Position numbers and translations under genes: made by a program. A stretch of DNA of 34,298 bases from a virus. Location of the stretch: positions 1 to 34,298 of IMG/VR virus record IMGVR_UViG_3300028114_001015. One strand, given 5' to 3'. This document shows positions 1,484-14,187 of this stretch, piece after piece. Within the stretch, counting starts at the first letter, position 1. Each line of letters starts with the position of its first letter. The notes under the pieces were generated by a model. The model had not been told where the DNA came from, ran no database searches, and saw only the letters and a list, made by a program, of their open reading frames with translations.

Positions 1484-1906
1484 TTAGCGGCTGGTGATTT
1501 CCCAGCAAAACGGCAAGTCAAGCGGCCCCAGCCGCTCCTCGTCGGGCGCGGCAGGGTCGTATTCGTGCGACGGCAAATTGAGAACGGCAGCCTCTCGGTG
1601 GCCGTGGCAGGGCGTGAACCCGTGGAACAGTCCCGCCGGGATGACCAAAAGCTGCGGGTGATCGGCGCAAAGAATGACGGTCTGGCTTTTGGACCCGTCA
1701 TGGATGCCGACCTTGGCCGCCCCCGCGACACAATACCACCGATCCCATTGGCGGTGGTGGCGATGCCAGGCCTTGACTACGCCAGCCGAGGCCGTGGTGA
1801 TGTAAGCCTGTCCAAACCCGTGTGGGTCATCGCTGGCGCGGTGGATCTCGGTGAGCCTCCCGCGCTCATCGAGGTGCGCGGTCAATGGTTTGAGTTGGGC
1901 TAACAT
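1484..1906 (-). CDS. RmlC-like cupin (dTDP-4-dehydrorhamnose 3,5-epimerase family)
   Basis: The protein has the RmlC cupin signature. It reads KAWHRHHRQWDRWYCVAG for the first beta-barrel motif with its histidine cluster, then VIPAGLFHGF for the second, and near the C-terminus LNLPSHEYDPAAPDEERL. In RmlC enzymes a His/Asp dyad and a Tyr epimerise the sugar ring of dTDP-4-keto-6-deoxyglucose during rhamnose synthesis, and equivalent residues are visible here. The frame is open further upstream. I chose the ATG at 1906 because it overlaps the stop of the preceding gene (ATGTTAG) and has AGGA just before it. About 140 residues is short compared with the usual 180 or so. It sits with two sugar-related genes, so it may act on a nucleotide sugar used for glycan decoration. 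The exact substrate is unknown. Confidence 0.75.
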   Translation of the reverse strand: MLAQLKPLTAHLDERGRLTEIHRASDDPHGFGQAYITTASAGVVKAWHRHHRQWDRWYCVAGAAKVGIHDGSKSQTVILCADHPQLLVIPAGLFHGFTPCHGHREAAVLNLPSHEYDPAAPDEERLGPLDLPFCWEITSR

Positions 1907-2589
1907 GGGCATCCTAAAATGTTCCACCACGTCCGCTCTAGGATCTCCCCGCTTCGCTCGGTCTTGCGGGCTAAGGCTTGAACGTCTTTATACCATTGGA
2001 GGGGTCGCCCCCTGATAGCCTCACGGCTGGCCGCAAACTGTGCGCCGGGCTTCCACCAAACCTTTTGCAGATCAAGCTGACCTAACTGCTTCCAGAATTT
2101 GCCGCAAAACTCCGCTTCCCCACCGGCAGCGGTCGGGCTGTCAGTTTTTGGCAAGGTGCAGAAAGTGACAGATCCAAGCGCCTCAACCACCTCCTTAAAG
2201 TCATGGCAGTGGTCGTGCGGGTGTCCCTGCAAAAAAACAGTGACCTCGGCCAGTGTGTCGTATCGCCAGATGATGTGATTTAGCCACTGCTCGGCCTCGC
2301 GCCCTTTCGGGCAGTTTGCTGCATCCTTTTCGGCGTGTGCGCTAATTTCTTGGGTCGGATCAGGCTGCCGACTTAGCTCTGCCATTTCGCGGACGAAGGC
2401 CATGACAGCGCGCATACGGTCAAGTTGCGTGTAGAGGTCTTCGCCGTGGTGATGTTGCCCTCTGTTGATTTTGTTTGCGCTAGGCAGCGTAGGCTCCCCA
2501 CATCTGTAAATCGTGGCCATAGGTCGCCAATGATCAGGCAGCCAGTCGATTCGTTCGCGGTGGGCGGCGATGACGATTTCCTTTTGCAT
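1900..2589 (-). CDS. DUF3431-like protein, putative glycosyltransferase-related
   Basis: The hallmarks of DUF3431 are visible. An N-terminal strand EIVIAAHRERIDWL is followed by a second strand near ATIYRCGE. The signature GREAEQWLNHIIWRYD runs into VTVFLQGHPHDH. DUF3431 proteins are found near, and sometimes fused to, glycosyltransferases, but their reaction is not established. The ATG at 2589 lies 2 bases after the stop of the upstream glycosyltransferase, so the two are probably co-translated. A TTG further upstream would overlap that gene. The C-terminus overlaps the cupin gene by 7 bases. The protein has 229 residues with no membrane segment or signal peptide. A role in sugar modification is inferred from the neighbours. 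Confidence 0.65.
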   Translation of the reverse strand: MQKEIVIAAHRERIDWLPDHWRPMATIYRCGEPTLPSANKINRGQHHHGEDLYTQLDRMRAVMAFVREMAELSRQPDPTQEISAHAEKDAANCPKGREAEQWLNHIIWRYDTLAEVTVFLQGHPHDHCHDFKEVVEALGSVTFCTLPKTDSPTAAGGEAEFCGKFWKQLGQLDLQKVWWKPGAQFAASREAIRGRPLQWYKDVQALARKTERSGEILERTWWNILGCPC

Positions 2590-2591
2590 AA

Positions 2592-3614
2592 TTAGCAGGG
2601 CATCCAAGGTTGCTGTCGTTGGCGAAGATGGCCTCGGTATTCGCCTTCGGTTTCGTGATAGGCGCGGTGGTGGATTACCTCACCCTTGGCATCACGCTTC
2701 ACATGGTCCGCCGCCGTGTGGGCAATGGCCGCGATCCGCAGGCCGGCGGGATGCCAGCGATGCCAGCAAAGGAAAAGGTCTTGCGTCCCTTTGCCGTCGT
2801 AACCCTCAAATGTGGCCAAGGCCAAGGCCCGCGCCGACATTAGGGTGCAGCCGAGACCACACCAATCAGACGGCACAATGGCCCCGCGACCAATGCCAGG
2901 GTAAGCAAAGTCCATCCAGCCCCTGCGCCTCCAGCCGTGCTTGGCCGTGACTTCAAACACGTTGCCGTCTGGCGGGCATTTGCGGACTCGCTCGCCCAGC
3001 CGCCCGAGGCGCTTGCCTTCCCGCTCGCCAATAGCTTTGTCCTGGCAGTCTTTCAGTCGGGCGCGGCAAGCCTCCAAGGCGCGGACGAGGCGAGGCGGCA
3101 GCTTGCGTTCTTTCTCGTTGAAGTCCTCGGCAATGGGATTTTGCGGCGTGCCGTTGCCGCCGAGGAAAAGCCCGTTTGGATAGGTCACGGCAGCGACTGA
3201 ATAAAACGGGCTGCCGTCCTCGGTCGGCATGGCCAGCGCCCACTCGGCCACCCGCAGGGCATCAGGCGGGACAAGGTTGTCGGCCTCCACTGACCACAAA
3301 GCCGTGGCGCGGATCTTCCTGGCGGCGGCAAAGGCCGCGCCCTGAAGTGCAGCAATCCGCATTTGGGCGGGCTGCTTGTAGTCCTTGCCTTCTGGCCCAC
3401 CATCATCGAGGGCCAAGGCAATGGCCTGGATGCGCCAGCCTTCGGGCAATTCGACCTTGGCAGCTTCAACGGCCTGCTTGGCCTCGTCACTCTGGTCTGT
3501 TGCCAGAACAAAATGGGCCTCGGCGTGGTGGCCGGCAGCGGCGGCGATGCGCCTTAAAAACTGGGGCCAGCAATGAAAATAGCTGCGCGTTGCATAAGTG
3601 GCTATGGCTAACAC
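2592..3614 (-). CDS. Putative GT-A fold glycosyltransferase
   Basis: This 340-residue protein starts at once with a Rossmann-type strand, LAIATYATRSYFHCWPQFL, typical of nucleotide-sugar-binding domains. An ALWSVEADNLVPPDAL segment near residues 105-120 has an ExD motif in the position of the metal-binding DxD of GT-A enzymes. A later WCGLGCTLMSARAL strand and an HRWHPAGLRI region could form the acceptor side. The only start near the natural N-terminus is a GTG at 3614, with no clear ribosome-binding site. The gene lies 18 bases after the 565-residue tail protein and leads a cassette with the DUF3431-like and cupin genes. Donor and acceptor cannot be read. A virion glycoprotein or host surface glycan is plausible. 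Confidence 0.6.
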   Translation of the reverse strand: MLAIATYATRSYFHCWPQFLRRIAAAAGHHAEAHFVLATDQSDEAKQAVEAAKVELPEGWRIQAIALALDDGGPEGKDYKQPAQMRIAALQGAAFAAARKIRATALWSVEADNLVPPDALRVAEWALAMPTEDGSPFYSVAAVTYPNGLFLGGNGTPQNPIAEDFNEKERKLPPRLVRALEACRARLKDCQDKAIGEREGKRLGRLGERVRKCPPDGNVFEVTAKHGWRRRGWMDFAYPGIGRGAIVPSDWCGLGCTLMSARALALATFEGYDGKGTQDLFLCWHRWHPAGLRIAAIAHTAADHVKRDAKGEVIHHRAYHETEGEYRGHLRQRQQPWMPC

Positions 3615-3632
3615 TCGGCAGAGTGGCGTGTG

Positions 3633-5330
3633 TCAAGCAGGGTCTGGCGGGTTCCTTGATTCAGTCCAAAAAATAGCGTCGGGCGCCGGACTGTTCCCAT
3701 TGAATAGCCCGCCGCCCAAAAGGTGTGGTTCAAAAGTCAGATAGCTTACTGATGTGCTTTCTCCCTGGCCATATGAGGTGTCGTTTCCCAGATGGCTAAT
3801 GCTTTCGCTGTTTTTCAGATCACTGTAAACGTATTCGGGCCGCACCCTGTCAACAACCGTCCAGCTTTCTGCAAAGACCCCGCCGCCCAAATGTGGCACA
3901 GCGTAAATATCGTCAAAAACTAACGCAGGTTGTCCCTCAACGCCAATAACAGTTGAGGCAGTGGTCGCCACAGTTCCATTAGTTGTTTTGTAAGTGATGC
4001 TTGGCAGGCTTAAGGTCAAACTTTGGTTTGTGGTGTTGATAATAGTAATTTGACCGCGAGTAAAAGAAGCGGTGTAGGGGTTTACTAAATAATCCAAATT
4101 GGTAGGAGTAGTTTGTGATCCCTTTTGCCCGTCAATGTCCCATGCAGTTTTGCCGTATCGAAATTGCGATGTGCTGGCAGGAAAGCCAGTGATTAAGGAA
4201 GCCACCCAAGACGGGGCAGCAAACCGATTGGCCTGCAAGGCTATGAGTGTTTCATCATACAACTTTTGCGTTTCTGAGAGTGTTGAATTGGCAAACGTGT
4301 CGCCGGGGTCTTCGCTATAAAATTGCGTGTATGTGTAATTAACTGGCGTTGATTGTGTCTGCACGGTTGAAACCGTGTAAGAATGTTCAACCACGCTTGA
4401 CTGACCGTCAGGGCCGTATTGAGTGATATTTCTTGTTAGCTCTGTCTCTTCGGCCACAGTTTCGCTTGAGCTTGCTGCGCTCAAATCAATGGCCGGCGAG
4501 GCTTGACCAGCCAAAGTAACCAATCCTGTGACCGCACCTCTTGTCACGGTTTCTTTGAATGGCAAAACGGTAATTCGGGTTTCCGTTGTCGCTAGGGGTC
4601 GAGCGGCTTTTGCTGTTGGTTCGTAAGAAGCGGGATTTGATATTTTGTAAAAAACCTCATTTCCCTCGGCTTGGTAAATCGTGGCACGAGAAACGCCGCT
4701 GGTCGTAACGGAAAGCGTTGTTGTGGTGTCTGCGGTTTCTTCAGTGGACTGCGATAAAAAAAACCAATATGTCGGAGTAGCTTGTGTTGTGGTTGCAATA
4801 GTGGCCTCTCCTTGCACCGTCTCGGTTATGAGAATGCCGCCGCTTTGTGAGGCGGTCACGGCATTGCTCGGAACGGCAGTGCCTGATTGGATGGACCCAA
4901 ATTTGCTGGCTGAAAAAGTAGTTATTGTTGATGTGACCTGATGCTCTGTGCCGTATATGCGGAGTCCGCTAGCTGTGGTCAGCTTTGGGTAACTTTCAGA
5001 GGTTGTTGGCGGCTGATATTGGCCAGAAAAGTAATATGTCGTCCAAGTGAACGCTTGTGTCTCCCCAAACCTTGAGTTGTAAGCTCCCTGCACATCATGC
5101 AGCAAGGTTTGGAAAGTTGCCGTTTGATTAGCAGATCGAATTGTTGCCCTGCTGTTTATGCCTGATCCGCTTTCGCTTTCCGTAACGGAATTTGTAACTG
5201 AGCCAAAGAAAGGGTTTACACCACTTGTGGAACCGTTCCTTGTTCGCGTTAAAGAACCGGTCTGCAGCGTGTGCGAGGAAAAGTAGCTTGTCGTTTCAAT
5301 CCCTGTTGTAACGATTGTCCAGCTAATCAT
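3633..5330 (-). CDS. Large Ser/Thr-rich distal tail or fibre protein
   Basis: I do not recognise a family for this 565-residue protein. It is very rich in Ser and Thr, poor in charged residues and predicted mostly beta, as expected for a distal tail, tip or receptor-binding protein. Its ATG overlaps the stop of the preceding gene (ATGA), so it is translated with the tail genes. It is the last protein before the glycosyltransferase cassette, which makes it a candidate acceptor for O-linked sugars; that is inference only. Base composition is lower in G+C than the capsid genes: 26 of 60 bases in 4021-4080. This suggests a different history or relaxed exchange, common for host-range genes. Confidence 0.6.
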   Translation of the reverse strand: MISWTIVTTGIETTSYFSSHTLQTGSLTRTRNGSTSGVNPFFGSVTNSVTESESGSGINSRATIRSANQTATFQTLLHDVQGAYNSRFGETQAFTWTTYYFSGQYQPPTTSESYPKLTTASGLRIYGTEHQVTSTITTFSASKFGSIQSGTAVPSNAVTASQSGGILITETVQGEATIATTTQATPTYWFFLSQSTEETADTTTTLSVTTSGVSRATIYQAEGNEVFYKISNPASYEPTAKAARPLATTETRITVLPFKETVTRGAVTGLVTLAGQASPAIDLSAASSSETVAEETELTRNITQYGPDGQSSVVEHSYTVSTVQTQSTPVNYTYTQFYSEDPGDTFANSTLSETQKLYDETLIALQANRFAAPSWVASLITGFPASTSQFRYGKTAWDIDGQKGSQTTPTNLDYLVNPYTASFTRGQITIINTTNQSLTLSLPSITYKTTNGTVATTASTVIGVEGQPALVFDDIYAVPHLGGGVFAESWTVVDRVRPEYVYSDLKNSESISHLGNDTSYGQGESTSVSYLTFEPHLLGGGLFNGNSPAPDAIFWTESRNPPDPA

Positions 5331-5959
5331 GGCGCGAGAACGTAATACAAGTTGTAGAGAGATTCGCCCGGGGCAACATTGGTCCGCGCTTCTTGAAACC
5401 AGATTTTGGGACTTAGGGTGATGTTTCCTGCTGCTATTGTTCGCAGCGCCCCGCCTTGTGAAAATATTCCAAACACTACGTTTACGATCGACGGGACGGC
5501 AAACAACTCGGGTTGCTGGGATTCTGGCGGGCTTGTTGGAAATTTTATCTCGACGCTGGTAATGGCTTTTCCGTCAGTAGAAACCTCGGCAACTGCGTAA
5601 TAGTCCTGGTCTCCTTGCAGCGTAAACTCCTCGTCCCAGTTAGTTGGCAAAAAGTCTGACAGCGTCCCCGGGCGAACACGCACCAGATAGGGCGGGTTGG
5701 CGTCCTCGGGATCTGCGTCGGGGTCTACGCGGGCTTGCAAGTCCCAGGGTTGGGTGGTGGCGGGTGTGCTGCTGGCTTGCGGCAAGGACGCGGCTAGCCC
5801 AATGTATGTGCCCGTGCCGTCCTGCCGCACCGTAATGCCGCGCTCGCCCTTGGGCTTGTTGCGGCGGATCTCGGTGAGGATAGCGTTAAGGCGCTCCGAT
5901 CCTAGCTCTTTGATTAAAGGGCGGCCTGGCGTGAACCGTATTGAGTCAAACTGCGGCAT
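5327..5959 (-). CDS. Tail-associated structural protein, unknown family
   Basis: This 210-residue protein has no recognised domain. The N-terminal 35 residues include SERLNAILTEIRRNKP, a short amphipathic helix seen near the start of several phage tail and fibre attachment proteins. A basic stretch follows, then a beta-rich body with PYLVRVRPGTLSDFLP and GDQDYYAVAEVSTDGKAITS. The N-terminal helix may mediate attachment and the C-terminus projection, but this is inference. The gene lies 3 bases after the preceding tail gene in transcription order and overlaps the next by 4 bases (ATGA). Its place downstream of the tape measure corresponds to the tail-tip genes of lambda. Confidence 0.55.
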   Translation of the reverse strand: MPQFDSIRFTPGRPLIKELGSERLNAILTEIRRNKPKGERGITVRQDGTGTYIGLAASLPQASSTPATTQPWDLQARVDPDADPEDANPPYLVRVRPGTLSDFLPTNWDEEFTLQGDQDYYAVAEVSTDGKAITSVEIKFPTSPPESQQPELFAVPSIVNVVFGIFSQGGALRTIAAGNITLSPKIWFQEARTNVAPGESLYNLYYVLAP

Positions 5960-5962
5960 AGA

Positions 5963-6622
5963 TTACTCGTATCCATACAGAACTTCAACATCGTCCCACT
6001 CGCTAAAGTTTAAGGTGTATTCCCTAGTCACTTCGTAACGACCACCAATGGGCGTTGCCGTAATTGCCGTGTTAATCCAAAATGTTCCAGTTGGAGCATT
6101 TAGCTCTGGCGGGTCAGCAACCCTTGCAATCTGGCTTAAATCTGGCAATTCTGTTTCGACTTCCGTTATTCTTCCGACAACTGCTGGCACTAATACATAC
6201 TCAACTTTTTTCCGCAGGAAATTGTAGAGCAGTTGCTGTTTTTCGTCGGCAAATGTTTTCCACTGATCGGCCACTTTGTTTTCAAGTGCCGTGTCCACTT
6301 CGGCAAGTTCAGTTTCTGTAAGATCTTTAAATGCAGGATGTGTTTGGATTGGTGATTGGATAGTTCCGCCTGTGAGTTCAACCCGTTTGCCGTATTGGCC
6401 AAATCCCGAGTAGCTTGCGCCGCCGGCCCCTGCTTGGCTGTATTCAAGCACTCCGCGAACAATGCCGCCCGGTTCTTCAGTTATGGTTGAATTTGTTAGA
6501 GGATATCCCGACTCAGTAGCCGGAACTTGTATCTCCCCGTCAGTAGAGACGACAACCTTTCGGATAATTTGCCTGTCTCCGCTGTCGATAAATCCGCCGC
6601 CTGTTGTTTCAAACTGTGCCAT
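5963..6622 (-). CDS. Distal tail protein, unknown family
   Basis: This 219-residue protein starts just after the tape measure gene (stop at 6625), the position of lambda gpM and other distal tail proteins. The sequence mixes a beta-rich N-terminus with a central helical segment around residues 95-140 (DLTETELAEVDTALENK, then a region ending NFLRKKVEYVL). It ends in YEVTREYTLNFSEWDDVEV. No motif was recognised. A clear ATG at 6622 starts the frame. The gene is more AT-rich than the head genes. A structural role rests on gene order alone. Confidence 0.55.
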   Translation of the reverse strand: MAQFETTGGGFIDSGDRQIIRKVVVSTDGEIQVPATESGYPLTNSTITEEPGGIVRGVLEYSQAGAGGASYSGFGQYGKRVELTGGTIQSPIQTHPAFKDLTETELAEVDTALENKVADQWKTFADEKQQLLYNFLRKKVEYVLVPAVVGRITEVETELPDLSQIARVADPPELNAPTGTFWINTAITATPIGGRYEVTREYTLNFSEWDDVEVLYGYE

Positions 6623-6624
6623 GA

Positions 6625-8139
6625 TTAAAACTCCGTTTTCATAAGTAGGACGCTGTCTTTTTTAAGTAGTTGCCCAATTTCTTTGACAAAATTGCCCACG
6701 TTCTTGATTTCTGCTGCGGGGTCTGATTTAGTCCGAGAATCGTAAAACTGATCTGAGGCAAATCCAACTTTCTGGAGTGAAGACGCGCCAAACGATCCTA
6801 ATTGCATTTTAGTCCCCTGCTGCTCCCGCAGAGCGGCGGCAGCAGCAGCAAAGTTGGCGGCATACTCAAAGTTTTCTGTCGCCTCAAGGCCCTTGGCCAT
6901 GTCTTGCGCTTGGAGAATTGACTCCTCGGCGGCATTGTCTCCTGTCGCCCTAGCCTCAAGCAGCCTAGTGTTTAGATTAAACTCGTCGGCCCTTTGCTTT
7001 TTGCGGTCTGCCTCTTTTTGTATGCGATCTGCCTCTTTAGCTTTTTGGTCGGCGTCTTTGCGGGCGCTTTCTCTTTCACGTTCCAGCTCCTCGATGCCCT
7101 CAAAGCTGCCAGGCCCGAGCTGCTTGCCAATGACGTTGCCCTGGCGTGTGCCAGACTCCAATTTCTGCTGACGCTCTTTTTCGCGGGTGATTTCTTTTTC
7201 GGCTTCTAGGCGCTTTTGGGCTGCTTCTGCTGCATCTTCTGCTGCAATAACAGCCTCAAACTCAGCCATTAGCTGTGCGGAATTTTGAGGGCTAACTTTT
7301 CTGGCCTCTAGAGCGCGCTCTAAAGCGTTGCGGCGCTCTCTGACTTCTTGCTCTCTTTGAGCTGCGGCAACTTTTTCGGGATCTCCCCCAGCAGCAGCCA
7401 TTTCCTCCGCTTGGGATCGCTGAAGCATTAAAGACGCTTGTAGGGCCTGCAAAGACTGGCTCTCTTGAGCTTTTTGATCGTTTTTAAGCAGTTCGGAAAC
7501 TGAAGTTCCACCCACTAATCCAGTGTATGCGTCAGCAATACGTCCAAGTAATTGCGACGGTCTGCCGCTAAAAGCGTTGGCCAGTGCCGTGCCAACTCCC
7601 TTACCTAGTTTTTCATCAATAATCTTGCCAGTTTGATCGGCTTGATCTCGCAAATTTTCAAATGACGAAATAGCCCCGCTAAGAGTGGTTTGGCTTCCTG
7701 CTTCTGCCAGAGATTCTGCGAACCGTTCTTGAACTTGTGTGGCAGCAACAACCGCGCTGCTCAAGGTATCAAAAGCAGAGGCAATGGCCTTGCCAACCGT
7801 AGCTGCTACACCGATCAAAATTGCAAACCGCCCGATTACCCCGCCGATGCCCCCGGCAAACTCTTGCGGAACTGATGGGTCAAACGCCTCTTGGGCTGAT
7901 TGACGAACCTTCTTCAGCTCCTCCTGCATCTGGCGAAGCGGCTCAAGGCCATAGTCGCCAATGTCTATCTTGAAGGTCGGAGCCACCCGCTCTTGCATAG
8001 GCTGCCGAGCCGGCATCTGCATGGCCGCCTGCATTTCCTTCTGCGCTTGCCCAGCAAATTGACGCACCTCGGCCAGCGAGGCTTGCAGACCTGTCTGCAC
8101 CTCGTTCTGGGCTGTGATTTTTACTTTTACTTCAGCCAT
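6625..8139 (-). CDS. Tail tape measure protein
   Basis: At 504 residues this is the longest tail-module protein with tape measure features. It has an N-terminal helical segment, a hydrophobic stretch at about residues 96-123 (GGVIGRFAILIGVAATVGKA), and long Ala/Glu/Gln/Lys-rich coiled coils after residue 200, including a run of repeated KEADRIQKEADRKKQRADE heptads. Tape measure proteins set tail length, and 504 residues would suggest a short siphovirus tail of roughly 75 nm by the usual 1.5 angstrom per residue rule. The ATG at 8139 overlaps the end of the chaperone-position gene by 8 bases. Order tube, chaperone position, tape measure, distal tail proteins matches lambda V, G/T, H, M. Confidence 0.8.
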   Translation of the reverse strand: MAEVKVKITAQNEVQTGLQASLAEVRQFAGQAQKEMQAAMQMPARQPMQERVAPTFKIDIGDYGLEPLRQMQEELKKVRQSAQEAFDPSVPQEFAGGIGGVIGRFAILIGVAATVGKAIASAFDTLSSAVVAATQVQERFAESLAEAGSQTTLSGAISSFENLRDQADQTGKIIDEKLGKGVGTALANAFSGRPSQLLGRIADAYTGLVGGTSVSELLKNDQKAQESQSLQALQASLMLQRSQAEEMAAAGGDPEKVAAAQREQEVRERRNALERALEARKVSPQNSAQLMAEFEAVIAAEDAAEAAQKRLEAEKEITREKERQQKLESGTRQGNVIGKQLGPGSFEGIEELERERESARKDADQKAKEADRIQKEADRKKQRADEFNLNTRLLEARATGDNAAEESILQAQDMAKGLEATENFEYAANFAAAAAALREQQGTKMQLGSFGASSLQKVGFASDQFYDSRTKSDPAAEIKNVGNFVKEIGQLLKKDSVLLMKTEF

Positions 8140-8731
8140 TGCCTTCGCTTTTACCCTCGATGTCAGACGCTTCGGCCTGCTGCGCTTTGAGCTTTTGCCG
8201 CAGGATGGCTACCCGCTCGGAGTCCGTTACAATGTCCAAGCGCGAACCGCTTTCCGTTTCGTAGCCGGCGGCCTCATACCAGGAGGCAATACCCACTGGC
8301 GTCTGCCATGCCTCGCGCTCGCTCATGCCGAGGCGCATCAGGCGCACGGCAGTTGCAATCTGGTGCGGGATGCGCGACGGCTCGGCGCGGCTTTCGCCTG
8401 CCTTGGGCGCTTTTGTCCAAAGCTGCGGTGGCGTGCAGTAATCATCAACAAAGACCTTCCAGCGGGCAACCTCGCGCTCAAAATCGGCATTGCGTGTACG
8501 GTAGCGCCACCACAAATTGCTCGGCCCCCCAAGACGCAGGGCAGACAGCGGAGGGTTGGCGCAGATCCACGCGGCCACGCGCAGTTCCTCGGGCGTTCCA
8601 AGGCGTCCGTGGTAGAAAGGATTGCCGAGGCTTTCTAAGACAAAGGCATGGCCCAAGGAAAGCGGGCGCATGGCGAGGCCATAGACCTTGTGACTTGCGT
8701 TTAAGAACGCTTCTGCGGCCAGGCTATCCAT
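8132..8731 (-). CDS. Tail assembly chaperone-position protein
   Basis: This 199-residue protein lies between tail tube and tape measure, where lambda has the chaperones G and GT. It has a helical N-terminus, a central region rich in Trp and Arg (PSNLWWRYRTRNADFEREVA), then MRLGMSEREAWQTPVGIASW, a segment resembling short phage proteins described as tail assembly or GpT-like. It ends in a charged helix rich in Lys, Gln and Glu. Lambda makes two forms by frameshifting, but only one frame is seen here and no heptameric slippery site was found near its end. The function is inferred from position. Confidence 0.5.
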   Translation of the reverse strand: MDSLAAEAFLNASHKVYGLAMRPLSLGHAFVLESLGNPFYHGRLGTPEELRVAAWICANPPLSALRLGGPSNLWWRYRTRNADFEREVARWKVFVDDYCTPPQLWTKAPKAGESRAEPSRIPHQIATAVRLMRLGMSEREAWQTPVGIASWYEAAGYETESGSRLDIVTDSERVAILRQKLKAQQAEASDIEGKSEGNG

Positions 8732-8743
8732 AGCCCGTGGCGG

Positions 8744-9304
8744 TTACGATCCAGCAAAGGCAACCGTGGTGACGGTATCGCGGAAATAGTCCGTGTTGCT
8801 GATTCGGCGCTCAACGCGGATGGTCGAGCTTGAGGAATGGTCGCCGGTGGTCAAGGTCGATCCTGCCACCGTAGCCGTGTTGATGGCCGTGCCACGGACG
8901 TTCGTCTTGACCACATCGCCCGCAGTTTCGGCCTTTTCCGCGCTCAAGGTTACAAAGGTCACGCCATCAAGGGTGAAGCTAGAGCCAGTAAAGTCGCCAA
9001 GCACCTGGGCAGACGCTTCGGCCCGGGGGTTGTAGAAGCGTATGGCCGGGGGCGCAGTGCTGGCCGTGCCGCTTTCAATTAGCTGCTCGTCCACCTGTGC
9101 CGTAATGGTGGCGTTCAGAACGTCCAGCGCGCCGATTGAACCCGCGCCAAAGGTCGTTCCTACAGTCTCGGTGGCCGTCTCGGTGCGGACATACTTAGAA
9201 AGAATGGTCGTTGTTACGCCGTTTTTGTCCTGGACAAGCAGTTTCTCAAAGGTTTTGGAGGTGGACTTACTAAAAGCCCCAGAAACGCCGTAGACGATAG
9301 CCAT
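8744..9304 (-). CDS. Major tail tube protein (putative)
   Basis: This 186-residue, Thr/Ser/Val-rich, beta-strand-dominated protein lies immediately before the chaperone and tape measure genes and after the tail terminator-like gene, the position of lambda gpV. The first 40 residues (IVYGVSGAFSKSTSKTFEKL) look like a flexible arm and the body is alternating short strands, compatible with a tube-protein beta barrel. No sequence motif proves it. There is 25 bases of noncoding sequence before it and 12 bases after. Tube protein is among the most abundant virion proteins, so mass spectrometry would settle it easily. Confidence 0.6.
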   Translation of the reverse strand: MAIVYGVSGAFSKSTSKTFEKLLVQDKNGVTTTILSKYVRTETATETVGTTFGAGSIGALDVLNATITAQVDEQLIESGTASTAPPAIRFYNPRAEASAQVLGDFTGSSFTLDGVTFVTLSAEKAETAGDVVKTNVRGTAINTATVAGSTLTTGDHSSSSTIRVERRISNTDYFRDTVTTVAFAGS

Positions 9305-9329
9305 GCCCTCGCGGGCGGTGTCAACTTCC

Positions 9330-10211
9330 CTAGTTCACTTGCGCCCAAAGCGTCAGGGCCAGCACATCAGAAATGCGGTTGCTGTCCGTGTCGTTGGTGT
9401 GCGCGCCCTCAATGACGCCAGCCACGGTGACGTTGGCGCTCGTGAAGTCCTGCGTGGTCAGAAGGCGCAGGGTGTCCTGCACCTGACGCACGGCGGCAAC
9501 GTGGCCCGTGGAGTCGGCTCCATTTGTGATGACGTGGACTGTGGCCTGGGCTTGGTAGCGGGCCAACTGCGGGAAAGGCTTTGAGGCCGAGAGGCAAGCC
9601 GCGACAATGCGGGAGCCGGCGGCAGGGGCCTCGTTGTAGTAGGGCTGGATGGAATACTCGGCGGTCACGGCCTCGGGCAGTTCGGCCATCAGGTGCGCGC
9701 TCAGAATCTGCTCGACCTCATGGCGCAGGCTGAAGTCCTGCGGGTCGGCGTTGGTCGGCCCTGTCGGCGTGGTCCCGATGCGGTCGCCGGCCACGGCAGA
9801 CAGGCGGAAGCTGTCGGCTTGGTGGTTGGCCGAAGTCTCGCTGGCCAACTCGGATAGGGACCAGCCAAAGAGGGTGTAGTCGCTTTGCGCGGCGTTGATC
9901 GCGGCCAGGCTTACGTTCGTGTTGGTATCGTCAAGTAACGCGGCCAAAGCCCCCACCCTGTTTTTGTGGGCGGTTTGCCAGCCGCTTTCATTGCTTGCGG
10001 AGCTGACCACCGAAATGTCCACGTTGATGCGAGAGCCCTGTCTAGCGCCGCCCTCCAAGACCTCGCTAGAGTTGGCCTGCACAATAACGGCAGGGTAAGT
10101 AAGCGACTCGGATGGGACGCCGCTACGGATGGACGCCCCGGCCAAGGACGTTCCGCTTACGCCCGAGGTGATCCAATCGGCAAAGCTGGCCTCTATTTCG
10201 CGGTTAATCAT
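9330..10211 (-). CDS. Tail terminator-like protein, apparently two tandem domains
   Basis: Tail terminators such as lambda gpU are about 130 residues, but this protein has 293. It appears to contain two copies of the same fold. Copy one runs from about residue 4 to 141 and copy two from about 163 to 292. Matching landmarks are an N-terminal amphipathic helix (REIEASFADWI and RHEVEQILSAHL), a strand/helix unit (SRINVDISVV then AALL; ARYQAQATVHVI then DTLRLL) and a C-terminal strand (SFRLSAVAG and VLALTLWAQV). A Pro/Thr-rich linker at 147-158 separates them. The ATG overlaps the previous gene's stop (ATGA). Gene order gpZ-like, this, tube matches lambda Z, U, V. The duplication is inferred by eye. 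Confidence 0.6.
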   Translation of the reverse strand: MINREIEASFADWITSGVSGTSLAGASIRSGVPSESLTYPAVIVQANSSEVLEGGARQGSRINVDISVVSSASNESGWQTAHKNRVGALAALLDDTNTNVSLAAINAAQSDYTLFGWSLSELASETSANHQADSFRLSAVAGDRIGTTPTGPTNADPQDFSLRHEVEQILSAHLMAELPEAVTAEYSIQPYYNEAPAAGSRIVAACLSASKPFPQLARYQAQATVHVITNGADSTGHVAAVRQVQDTLRLLTTQDFTSANVTVAGVIEGAHTNDTDSNRISDVLALTLWAQVN

Positions 10212-11092
10212 GCCGCTTTGGCCACCTTGCCAACCCGTTTTTCAAACTCGGCTAGGATGTTTTCTTTGCGGAGGTTGAGAAGGAATTGAATGCTGCCCTT
10301 GTTGATCTTGGTCGAAGCAACAGGCGTCTCGTTGGTCAGCTCAACGAACATATTGTAGGGGTCGCCGTCGCTTACGCGGCCCTTGCCCATAGCGCGGTCC
10401 ACGTTGTTCCTGACAAAACGCGGGACGCTCACCCCAAGATTGGCTTGGTCTGCTGCCCTGGCCCACCCGGCTTTGAGCAAGCCGACTCTTTTGATGGTGT
10501 CGGTCACATATTGATTGTAGGCCGTTTTCTTTAGAACAATCTGCGCCCACTGTGGCCGTCCTACTTTGCCCCGAGAACCACGGCGGCCTTGGTGCAGCAT
10601 TCGGCTTGGTTCGTCGGCAATGTGTTCAATGCGGCCAAGGCGCGGGTCAGAAAAAACGCTGGCCTGCCGTGTCTGTGAGTAGGCTTTAACTGGTTTGCCG
10701 TTGCGGACGTAGCCCTTGACCTGAATGGACGTTTCCGCCTGGCCGTTAACAAAGTCTTTAGCCTTTTGCAGCTCGCCGTTACGGATGTAGCGATTAAAGG
10801 CTGTCTTGTCGCCGCGCTTGCCGTTTTGGCCGAGGATGGCCACAATAGTGCCGCGCTGGGCGAACACTTTGCCAATGTCTCGGGCCACGGCAAAATCGCC
10901 AATGGCCTTTGCGCTGTCGCCATCGCCCTGTGGCGCGGTGATGGAAACCAAGCCGAAGCCACTATCACCGGCCACCAAAAGACGCCCCTGGCGGCGCATT
11001 TCAAGCGACACCTCTTTCTTGGTGGCGTTGACGAACTTCGGCACAAACTCGCGCAGCTCATCAAGGCTGATGGTCAAATTGATTGCGGCCAT
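10208..11092 (-). CDS. gpZ-like neck or minor tail protein
   Basis: The protein starts MAAINLTISLDELREFVPKF at an ATG at 11092, 7 bases after the previous gene and behind an AGGGGG site. The open frame extends 14 codons further but would overlap the neighbour. The N-terminal helix followed by EVSLEMRRQGRLLVAG, and an overall helical, Lys/Arg-rich composition, resemble lambda gpZ and HK97 gp10-type neck proteins that link head completion proteins to the tail. At 294 residues it is longer than gpZ (about 190); the extra middle segment (about 105-190) is rich in Lys, Gln and Gly. Assignment relies mainly on synteny with FII, Z, U. Confidence 0.55.
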   Translation of the reverse strand: MAAINLTISLDELREFVPKFVNATKKEVSLEMRRQGRLLVAGDSGFGLVSITAPQGDGDSAKAIGDFAVARDIGKVFAQRGTIVAILGQNGKRGDKTAFNRYIRNGELQKAKDFVNGQAETSIQVKGYVRNGKPVKAYSQTRQASVFSDPRLGRIEHIADEPSRMLHQGRRGSRGKVGRPQWAQIVLKKTAYNQYVTDTIKRVGLLKAGWARAADQANLGVSVPRFVRNNVDRAMGKGRVSDGDPYNMFVELTNETPVASTKINKGSIQFLLNLRKENILAEFEKRVGKVAKAA

Positions 11093-11099
11093 AAGCCCC

Positions 11100-11432
11100 C
11101 TACTCTGCCAGCCCGCCAGCGGTGATCTCGACAATGGCAGGGTCGCGGTTCACGGCCAGCACTTGCAGATCCTGATTGCGTACGGTGATGCGGCTCCAAA
11201 TGGTCGGGACGGCATTGGTCACGCTGCCAAAGCTGGGCAAGAACGCGCTCGCAGGAAGCCCCACTTGCACGCTGCGGATCTGCCGCACGCCGCCCTCGGC
11301 CAACTCGTCGCGCTCATCGAGGCTGCCGACAATGGCGCGGTAGGCAATGTCGCCAATCGTCACTACCTCGCCGCCAAGGTCAGTGATCGCGCCTATGCCA
11401 AGGACGTGCGCTGTATCTAGTTGCGTGGCCAT
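11100..11432 (-). CDS. gpFII-like head-tail joining protein
   Basis: This 110-residue protein matches lambda gpFII (117 residues) in length and place. The end of the sequence contains a strand pair, SRITVRNQDLQVLAVNRDPA, typical of small beta-barrel joiners, and an internal segment DERDELAEGGVRQIRSVQVG. gpFII-type proteins cap the connector and offer the surface for tail attachment. The gene starts with an ATG at 11432, 3 bases after the glycosyltransferase gene, and is followed 7 bases later by the gpZ-like gene. No catalytic residues are expected. Confidence 0.6.
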   Translation of the reverse strand: MATQLDTAHVLGIGAITDLGGEVVTIGDIAYRAIVGSLDERDELAEGGVRQIRSVQVGLPASAFLPSFGSVTNAVPTIWSRITVRNQDLQVLAVNRDPAIVEITAGGLAE

Positions 11433-11435
11433 GCC

Positions 11436-13190
11436 CTATGGCTTGGAGTCAAAGGCGTCGGGGTTCCTGCGCTTGAAGACTTCAGCCCCGAATTTGTAGG
11501 CATCGTTGGAGTTTTCCACGTCGTAAATGGCGTCTGTCGGAATTTTGGGATCAAAGGCCGGGTGGTTGTGGAGAAACACAATGTCGGTGTCTAAGACGAT
11601 GCCCGCCTTGCGGACGCGGTGGGAAAACTCGGTGTCGCTGTATATACCGTGGTAATCACCCGACAGGATGCCTCCACCGTTGCCGAGCCATCCGAGGGTT
11701 GGCCGCGTGCAAATGAAGGTGACCATGAGGCCGTCTGTTCGGTGGCCGTCTTTTACGCCCAGAACTTTGGGTCGCTTAAGGTGCGGTTCCAAGGCCTGCC
11801 AGACCAGCTCGTCCCAAAAGAGCGGCGGCTCGATGTCATCCTGCGCGGTCACGATGATGTGGCCCGTGGAGGCTTTGACTGCTGCGTTGTAATTTTGCAC
11901 GGCATTGCCGCCGACTTGATCCATGAGGCCGGCGGGCGAAAGTGCGTGCTTGAAGCGTCCCAAAATGTCCCGCGTCTCGTCATCGTCTTCGGCAAATGCA
12001 AAGATGTATTCCACGCTTTGTGGGTCTTTGGCCGCTTCCAGCCACTTCTTGCGCGTTTCGGCAGCTTGCAACGGACGGCCTCGGGTGGGATGGCAAACGC
12101 TGATCTTGCCCCCGCATTTTTTGAACCACTCCAGCTCAAATGAATCTGCGCGCTTGGTGTCTCCGTTGGCCCGCAGGGTGCAGGCGTATAGCCCAACGCC
12201 GCCAAACCCATAGACCACCGGGCGGTGAGTCCACGGCACAATCTCTGGCACAGGCAGGGCCATAAAAGCCCTGGCATAAGACAAGGCGTCTTGCTCCTCG
12301 TTGTTGTCTAGGCTGGTGGCGGCGAGCTGCGCTAGGGCTTCCCTGCGCCAAGGGCTGACCTTGTAGGCCTCATGCAAGAGCGACTTTTTGGGCGCAAAGG
12401 CCTGCGTCCGCATGGCCAGTTGCAAATACAATTCGTAGCGTTCGTCACCCGAAAGCGACTCATGCTTGAGCGCCTCGATGGCCAGCTCCATGCCCCGGGC
12501 ATCGTCCTTCATGCCGAAATGCTCCAGGCTGCCGTAGAAAAGCCAGCGCGGGTCTTTTTCCCAGCCGGGTTGGCTGGACAAGATGCGCCAGTTGCGGGCG
12601 TTGCCGGCCTTCTCGGCGGCCATGTCTTTCTTCTCGTCAGGGGCGTGGACAATGCGGGCGTCCTCCCAGCGCACTTGGCCCTCTCCCGACTTGTCGAATG
12701 GTTTTAGGTGTTCGTGGACCGCGCCCTCCCAGCGTGCCGTCCCTGCTCGCCAGATCCGTTCGCGCAGGAGGTTAAGGCCGTTGTTGGTCAACCGATAGGG
12801 AATCATGGCCAAGGTGGTCGTGGTGGCCGTCTCGGACAGGTGCTGGCGGATGATGTCGCAGGACTCCTGCTCAATAATATCGTCCGTGTCGGCCCACATC
12901 AGCCACTGGTGGCCGTCAGCCTCGGCCATATCGGTGGCCATTTGCCGGGCGGCGGCGAAGTTGTCTACATGATCCCAGAATTGGAATGCCTCGGCGTTTT
13001 TGTATTCGCCGGTCTTGCAACCCATCTCGGCGGCGATGTCCAGCGTCTTGTCTGGGTCGCGGGAGCCGCAGGCGCGCACGATGTAAATGTGCGGCGTGAG
13101 TTGTTGGAAGGATTCAATAAACCGCCGGATGTAGCTTTCGCAGTTGCCCGCAATCGCCACCAGCGCCAACGAAGGCTGTGTGTGTTCCAT
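11436..13190 (-). CDS. Two-domain family 2-like glycosyltransferase
   Basis: This 584-residue protein appears to have two GT-A domains. The first (residues 1-200) opens LALVAIAGNCESYIRRFIES and contains WLMWADTDD with Asp101, 103 and 104 as the metal-binding motif. A middle section (about 205-345) of repeated helices with Trp/Tyr/Leu spacing resembles TPR units. The second domain (363-570) opens ISVCHPTRGRPLQAAETRKK and carries HIIVTAQDDIEPPLFWDEL, with Asp451 and Asp452. The gene sits between the major capsid gene and gpFII, separated from the capsid gene by an intrinsic terminator. It probably glycosylates a virion or host-surface target, but donor and acceptor are unknown. A glycosyltransferase inside the head-neck block is unusual. 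Confidence 0.8.
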   Translation of the reverse strand: MEHTQPSLALVAIAGNCESYIRRFIESFQQLTPHIYIVRACGSRDPDKTLDIAAEMGCKTGEYKNAEAFQFWDHVDNFAAARQMATDMAEADGHQWLMWADTDDIIEQESCDIIRQHLSETATTTTLAMIPYRLTNNGLNLLRERIWRAGTARWEGAVHEHLKPFDKSGEGQVRWEDARIVHAPDEKKDMAAEKAGNARNWRILSSQPGWEKDPRWLFYGSLEHFGMKDDARGMELAIEALKHESLSGDERYELYLQLAMRTQAFAPKKSLLHEAYKVSPWRREALAQLAATSLDNNEEQDALSYARAFMALPVPEIVPWTHRPVVYGFGGVGLYACTLRANGDTKRADSFELEWFKKCGGKISVCHPTRGRPLQAAETRKKWLEAAKDPQSVEYIFAFAEDDDETRDILGRFKHALSPAGLMDQVGGNAVQNYNAAVKASTGHIIVTAQDDIEPPLFWDELVWQALEPHLKRPKVLGVKDGHRTDGLMVTFICTRPTLGWLGNGGGILSGDYHGIYSDTEFSHRVRKAGIVLDTDIVFLHNHPAFDPKIPTDAIYDVENSNDAYKFGAEVFKRRNPDAFDSKP

Positions 13191-13210: not shown

Positions 13211-13243
13211 AACAAAAGCAAAACCCCCGGCATAGCCGGGGGT
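13211..13243 (-). terminator. Intrinsic terminator after the major capsid gene
   Basis: On the minus strand an ACCCCCGGC arm, a TAT loop and a GCCGGGGGT arm (13223-13243) form a perfect 9-bp G+C-rich stem. A T-rich tail (TTTTGCTTTTG) follows towards 13211. This is a textbook rho-independent terminator. It lies 30 bases after the capsid gene stop and 20 bases before the glycosyltransferase start. It could raise the relative level of capsid mRNA and limit expression of the glycosyltransferase and downstream neck and tail genes, which would rely on partial read-through or a further promoter. No promoter could be identified in the 80-base gap. Confidence 0.85.
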
Positions 13244-13272
13244 CTGCTGAACACACGAACCAGAACCAATAT

Positions 13273-14187
13273 TTAGCCCTTCTTGGCGAGGATCTTCAGA
13301 CCCGCCGTGATGCCGTAGGTGAATCCGCCCACCACCTCGAAGTTGAGGAAGTGCGTGCCATTTGCAGTGTTGTAATGGCGGCGATATCCCAGACCAATGC
13401 CGCTGACGGGATCAACGATGGTGCGGGCCTCAAGATACTCTGAAGGAGCCTGCGGCTGAAGGGTGCGGATCGCCACGGCGATAGCCGAGGGATGCACCGC
13501 GAAGCCTGCGAGGGTGATGCTTGCGCCCACGCCAGTGGCGGGGATCAGCGTGCTCTCGTAGACGTTCATACCGGCCAGACGGCGAACCACGCCCTCGCGC
13601 ACACCTTCGGGGCCGAAGTTGAGGTTAGCGAGGATGTTGGTGCTATCGGAGAGGAGAGCGTCGTAGGCTTCCGGCTCCAAGAACAACGCGCGGTCGTTCT
13701 GGGGAGCTTTGGCCTTGGTGAGTTCCAAGCGGGCCTTGCGAACGTCGGCCATCGAGAAGGAGGCCGAGGTGAACGAGGCAACCGCCGCGCCGAAGTTGCC
13801 CGTGGTGATGAGGCCCCAAGCGGCGCCGATGAAGGCTTGCGCCACCGCGCGGCCCTGCTCTGCGCCGATGTCGGCCAGCATTTGCGGGGTGAGTGCGGAG
13901 GACTTGCTCCACTGCGTGTCGGTGAAATCCACCGTGCTGAGATAGTGCTTGTCGATGGTGACCTCACGAGCGGTGAGGGTAACGTCTCCGTCCGCACCTT
14001 CGTAGGTGTTGTTGAACGTGGAGGCGGTGATCGAGGAGATGAGCGGGATGCTCACCACTTCGCCCTTGCGCGCGGCTTCGGCGTTGTAGTTCACGCTGAA
14101 AGCGTTCAGCGGGTGGAGGGAATCAACGAACGCCTTGAGCGCCGCTGACGAGATGATGTCGTCGTTTAGACCAGTGATGGAGGCCAT
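13273..14187 (-). CDS. Major capsid protein
   Basis: This 304-residue protein follows the protease/scaffold gene and has features of HK97-fold coat proteins. It starts with a helical N-arm (IISSAALKAFVDSLHPLNAF). A stretch similar to the E-loop and strand region follows (GEVVSIPLISSITASTFNN then VTLTAREVTIDKHYLSTVDF). A spine-helix region around 115-160 leads to a C-terminal beta region with GIGLGYRRHYNTANGTHFLNFEVVGG, close to the ends of many metagenomic caudoviral capsid proteins. The capsid would be built of some 415 copies if T=7. The ATG is at 14187, 6 bases after the protease stop. No decoration protein gene is seen next to it. Confidence 0.85.
   Translation of the reverse strand: MASITGLNDDIISSAALKAFVDSLHPLNAFSVNYNAEAARKGEVVSIPLISSITASTFNNTYEGADGDVTLTAREVTIDKHYLSTVDFTDTQWSKSSALTPQMLADIGAEQGRAVAQAFIGAAWGLITTGNFGAAVASFTSASFSMADVRKARLELTKAKAPQNDRALFLEPEAYDALLSDSTNILANLNFGPEGVREGVVRRLAGMNVYESTLIPATGVGASITLAGFAVHPSAIAVAIRTLQPQAPSEYLEARTIVDPVSGIGLGYRRHYNTANGTHFLNFEVVGGFTYGITAGLKILAKKG

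Follow-up and report, generated by a model that had tools for sequence, protein, structure and literature searches.

A two-domain glycosyltransferase held beside the major capsid gene throughout an uncultured phage clade: a candidate virion-protein glycosyltransferase

The glycosyltransferase gene and its surroundings

The window, that is, the whole stretch of viral DNA analysed here (34,298 nucleotides, IMG/VR record IMGVR_UViG_3300028114_001015), carries a glycosyltransferase (GT) gene directly behind the gene for the major capsid protein (MCP; table 1). The gap between the two genes is 82 nt long and holds a terminator hairpin of 11 pairs with a T-run at 13245–13221; the original prediction, made from the letters alone, had likewise placed a strong terminator between the two genes. 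That prediction also put the GT in the position of lambda gpFI. This holds as a description of place only and does not extend to homology of the next gene product (11100–11432) with gpFI. A single-sequence fold of the MCP (pLDDT 35) was excluded from the evidence.

Table 1. Positions of the genes, domains, motifs and signals discussed in the text.
Feature	Position	Strand	Basis or remark
FdtA/WxcM-like sugar-nucleotide isomerase-type cupin	1484..1930	-	in 7/8 records of the window's clade
DUF3431 protein	1900..2607	-	between two clade-conserved sugar genes
Probable further glycosyltransferase	2592..3614	-	VEADN and GTQDLFLCWH motifs by eye; in 8/8 records of the window's clade
Next gene, 110 aa	11100..11432	-	family 3; found behind the GT block of distant relatives too
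GT gene	11436..13190	-	GT-A, TPR-like, GT-A; 584 aa, ATG start
Exchangeable stretch, ~residue 400 to end	11439..11990	-	alleles A (window) and B in the window's clade
Second GT-A domain, residues 360–545	11556..12113	-	fold of WrtF, GalNAc-T2, RmlT; PHROG
DD motif of domain 2, residues 451–452	11835..11840	-	invariant in 72/72
TPR-like helical block, residues ~189–358	12117..12626	-	model helices; matches to TPR proteins
First GT-A domain, residues 1–170	12681..13190	-	GmaR/SunS/ThuS-like, protein-type GT2
DTDD motif of domain 1, residues 101–104	12879..12890	-	D101, D103, D104 invariant, 72/72
Intrinsic terminator between MCP and GT genes	13221..13245	-	hairpin
MCP gene, proposed acceptor	13273..14187	-	PHROG major head protein, E 6e-26; adjacency

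Does the protein have the two GT-A domains and TPR-like middle that were predicted for it? The N-terminal half matches Pfam GT2 (PF00535) above the cut-off, with E 7e-7. Two PHROGs, both labelled glycosyltransferase, cover residues 8–311 (phrog_13126, E 1.7e-17) and 362–521 (phrog_14945, E 1e-3), and the second half of the relative L041 matches a PHROG glycosyltransferase with E 6e-17. An AlphaFold2 model, for which 26 natural homologues served as input, reached a pLDDT of 84.3 and a pTM of 0.79. It consists of a GT-A domain, TPR-like helices at ~189–358 and a further GT-A domain from residue 360. Both halves of the predicted structure are thus GT-A folds, so that the condition named for refuting the prediction, a lack of GT folds in the model, did not arise; the prediction stands, down to the exact positions of its DxD-type motifs (DTDD and DD). 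Domain 1 belongs with the GT-A, DxD-type enzymes of family 2 by Pfam match, fold and invariant motif; domain 2 is assigned to GT-A by phrog_14945, by its likeness to WrtF (Z 16.4) and by the invariance of D451 and D452. Since both acidic motifs and many further residues of both halves are invariant across all 72 sequences, both domains are predicted to be active, and probably are. Among close relatives the gene is under strong purifying selection (median dN/dS 0.06–0.11). Its G+C content is 0.594, against 0.581 for the window. The protein has no hydrophobic or membrane segment, the maximum 19-residue hydropathy being 0.88. A single-sequence phmmer search with the protein found no match in the PDB, where the family profile did, and none was found for the 584-residue protein in 50,697 phage records.

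What kind of acceptor might the first domain serve? The leading glycosyltransferase matches of the family profile to PDB sequences are GmaR (E 4e-17), SunS (E 7e-12) and ThuS (E 5e-8). Fold matching of the model with Foldseek and VIA-align gave SunS for residues 1–292 (Z 19.6) and SunS and ThuS for residues 1–300 (Z 18–20). Each of the three acts on polypeptides directly: GmaR glycosylates flagellin, and SunS and ThuS are bacteriocin S-glycosyltransferases. They share the GT2-type GT-A domain of the window enzyme, and in SunS and ThuS the likeness extends into the beginning of the helical block, so that kinship in sequence and fold to direct protein glycosyltransferases is here joined to helical repeats. 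Unlike the window GT, these enzymes act on bacteriocin or flagellin, are encoded without linkage to any capsid gene and, in the solved chains, lack a second GT-A domain of its kind. This kinship, taken with the TPR-like block and the absence of any membrane segment, makes protein glycosylation our best guess for the function of domain 1.

Residues 360–584 resemble WrtF most closely (Z 16.4), with WrtF, GalNAc-T2 and RmlT in the range Z 15–16. Within the window's clade this domain occurs in two forms. Pairs of the L008/L022 and L018/L026 type are 92–100% identical in protein sequence up to about residue 400 and about 50% identical at the C-terminus. Both forms are present inside each of three sublineages of the clade (L008/L022, L018 and L032 compared with L026, L017/L025). 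This pattern fits alleles that would alter the sugar or the linkage made by domain 2.

The original prediction also pointed to a sugar cassette at 1484–3614. The cassette is real in that the genes at 2592–3614 and 1484–1930 are conserved in the window's clade, where they sit at the end of the structural genes; it is mixed in that the DUF3431 gene between them (1900–2607) was found in none of the 28 relatives searched, and that gene looks like recent cargo. The 2592–3614 protein has no match in Pfam or the PDB. Repeats in the window form only weak, chance-like families. Two records, L014 (G005) and L034 (G008), carry pieces of one gene at both contig ends, suggesting terminal redundancy or circular assembly.

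Linkage of the glycosyltransferase to the capsid gene

How firmly is the GT gene tied to the MCP gene? A scan starting from the GT found the MCP gene upstream in all of 79 IMG/VR loci. Because such a scan is biased toward GT carriers, we ran scans starting from the MCP, using as queries single MCPs, one from the window and the others from five distant lineages, because an MCP alignment was too diverse. Among the capsid-clade contigs with room for the gene (at least 900 nt behind the MCP gene; 23 further contigs end too early), the GT lies downstream of the MCP, on the same strand, in 168 of 168. In 157 it begins within 200 nt; in the others a longer gap, a small gene or an insertion intervenes. 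Homologues therefore occur at the same place in related phages, the check that was proposed with the original prediction. Many of these contigs are closely related, and dereplication leaves 71 representatives. Across the most distant pairs of these the mean MCP identity is 35% and the GT identity 36–46%. MCP and GT distances correlate at 0.88 for domain 1, 0.90 for the middle and 0.73 for domain 2. Given this unbroken linkage and the correlated distances, the GT and capsid genes appear to have been passed on together ever since the clade arose. A recent or stray insertion is rejected on the same grounds and on the similar G+C content. The earlier wording, by which the GT was ‘inserted’ between capsid and neck genes, was misleading: it is a fixed resident.

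The terminator shares in this constancy. A terminator-like hairpin lies within 130 nt behind the MCP gene in 65 of the 71 representatives; such a hairpin arises in 5.9% of shuffles and follows the GT gene in 3 of 65. It is conserved as a feature, not in sequence. Its natural reading is that it would give much capsid and little enzyme. In five contigs (L077, L050, L186, L193 and L199) an extra 0.8–1.3 kb separates the capsid and GT genes; the insert of L077, between the MCP end at 2858 and the GT start at 3691, begins, by eye, like a GIY-YIG endonuclease. Endonuclease genes may target this junction.

Beyond the clade the picture changes. Verrucomicrobia phage P8625 (PMC4642752), the nearest isolate by MCP (29% identity), has a similar head-gene order and no such glycosyltransferase. 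None was found either in the remote MCP group L266–L271 (capsid similarity about 42 bits); among the MCP matches, that group and P8625 are the only ones to lack the gene. The capsid fold therefore does not need the GT. Gene order is fairly well kept throughout the head block, and MCP linkage alone therefore does not identify the acceptor. An isolate of the clade, sought in the phage collection, was not found. Six matches in metagenome-assembled genomes (MAGs) were considered as bacterial homologues and rejected: five have a phage MCP upstream, and the contig of the sixth is too short. Four of these six contigs (two from one Chthoniobacteraceae MAG), together with P8625, point to Verrucomicrobiota. 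The very similar phage contigs L083, L084 and L087, which share one layout and have near-equal scores, are binned in MAGs of different phyla (Verrucomicrobiota and Armatimonadota) and are likely mis-binned. Since binning is this unreliable, Verrucomicrobiota is only suggested as the host.

Elaborated relatives and an independent case

Outside the window's clade, 47 of 61 representatives carry a class I methyltransferase fused to the C-terminus of the GT–GT protein; it occurs in none of the 10 representatives of the window's clade, the window included. The fused domain matches Methyltransf_24 (E 4e-26) and also TylF and RMNT_CmcI, families that include sugar O-methyltransferases, and its nearest solved match is 6g7d. 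The family resemblance points to a sugar or small-molecule O-methyltransferase-like enzyme. In L041, L058, L042 and L079, phrog_2675 labels the domain a DNA methyltransferase, a label with which the Pfam and PDB profiles disagree. Of 45 representatives from outside that clade, 43 also have a third, small GT2 gene (185–208 aa; examples in L041, L058 and L174) behind the GT gene; within the window's clade it is present in 0 of 10.

When a methyltransferase-bearing relative was searched against the phage collection, the matches were all partial, and they led to podovirus ctKR88 (MW202524). In ctKR88 and its relative L225, a GT2–TPR module homologous to that of the window (hhalign E 5e-18) is fused to a GT-B domain and encoded behind an SU10-type MCP; in ctKR88 the fusion gene is one gene after the MCP gene. 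ctKR88 and the phage of the window are alike in having this module near the MCP gene. They differ in the capsid itself, the SU10-type MCP having no detectable relation to that of the window, in the GT-B type of the second glycosyltransferase, and in the additional genes of ctKR88 (L222), whose large capsid-adjacent cluster at 1656–11978 holds several further glycosyltransferases and methyltransferases. Because the capsids are unrelated, we conclude that enzymes of this kind have come beside capsid genes at least twice.

Proposed role in the virion

What, then, does the enzyme modify? The reading that we favour, and consider probable, is a soluble enzyme devoted to virion-protein glycosylation, whose gene is firmly tied to that of the capsid and whose most likely acceptor is the MCP. 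Virion glycosylation had been suggested from the start, and five observations argue for it: the linkage to the MCP gene, the kinship with protein glycosyltransferases, the ctKR88 case, the methyltransferase and third GT of relatives, and the absence of any membrane segment. Against it stand the general synteny of the head block, the related capsids of P8625 and L266–L271 that do without the gene, and the PHROGs entry of both halves under the moron category. The capsid gene would be strongly transcribed, with only part of the transcripts passing the terminator, to yield much capsid and little enzyme. Domain 1 would attach the first sugar to a Ser or Thr residue, or possibly a Cys, of a virion protein that is most likely the MCP and that the TPR-like block may hold. 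Domain 2 would then add the next sugar, its swappable alleles changing the sugar or the linkage. In most of the distant relatives the fused O-methyltransferase would cap the glycan and the third small GT extend it. The outcome, we infer, would be a glycan coat affecting the adsorption, stability or loss of virions.

A location in the late operon would serve any virion protein, and the head genes up- and downstream also keep a similar order. The acceptor might accordingly be a tail fibre, decoration or neck protein, the place of the gene reflecting late expression only. Yet the downstream neighbour families vary between clades while the MCP–GT pair is never lost, and the module recurs near the unrelated MCP of ctKR88; we regard this alternative as unlikely. 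An action on the host surface, on LPS, a teichoic-like polymer, flagellin or pilin, with superinfection block or receptor change in the style of serotype conversion, appears less likely still. Such a role would suit domain 2, which has the fucosyltransferase WrtF and RmlT, a teichoic acid enzyme, among its fold neighbours, and would suit the match to GmaR, which acts on flagellin. However, no clade member is without the GT, which sets it apart from optional conversion genes; it has no membrane segment, and it lies in the head block, in neither an early nor a moron position. Nor does it resemble Gtr-type serotype conversion, there being no membrane-bound GT and no flippase or bactoprenol-GT partner among the scanned neighbours.

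Phage glycosyltransferases are often credited with protecting DNA (PMC10202952), and the PHROGs label on the fused domain of relatives would agree with glycosylation of phage DNA against nucleases. But domain 1 resembles protein glycosyltransferases, the methyltransferase matches Methyltransf_24, TylF, CmcI and 6g7d rather than DNA enzymes, and the gene position is late. We consider DNA the least probable acceptor, and very improbable.

If a virion protein is the acceptor, is there a precedent? Chlorovirus PBCV-1 A064R, a soluble protein, combines two GT domains with a methyltransferase at its C-terminus, and it assembles and O-methylates the outer portion of the glycan carried by the major capsid protein (PMC9614988). 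Its order of GT, GT and methyltransferase is that of the distant relatives of the window GT. The window GT itself is without a methyltransferase and so departs from this plan. A064R, for its part, is described with three domains and no TPR-like block, comes from a giant algal virus and has as its first domain a retaining GT34-like enzyme, so that the likeness claimed is one of architecture, not of sequence. The window GT family may work in the manner of A064R; membership is not claimed. Among phages, capsid glycosylation is already known in a few mycobacteriophages, with the GT genes away from the head genes: the capsids of Che8 and Rita are glycosylated, which is ascribed to phage-encoded GTs (as cited in PMC11256854), and Maravista has its GT genes close to the 3′ end of the genome instead of after the MCP gene (PMC11256854). 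The capsid clade studied here, in contrast, has one multi-domain enzyme after the MCP in every member. Our searches of the open-licence literature brought up no description of a GT, in this multi-domain form, that is tied to the capsid gene and fixed across a phage clade.

Evenly poised, in our judgement, is the broader proposition that this uncultured clade of tailed phages has capsid glycosylation as a core trait, marked by a never-lost MCP–terminator–GT pair, an enzyme in which a GT that primes the protein is joined to one that extends the glycan and often to a glycan methyltransferase, a design convergent with A064R, and second-sugar alleles that change the coat. The likeness to A064R would then mean that phages and giant viruses had converged, and the allele swap suggests that the surface sugar varies among phages of the window's clade. 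Phage glycosyltransferases are usually classed among the optional genes. In this large environmental clade the enzyme is no less constant than the capsid gene, which predicts an acceptor that can be tested by co-expressing two neighbouring genes. The sugar-coating of the virion looks like a fixed part of the biology of this phage group, not an optional extra.
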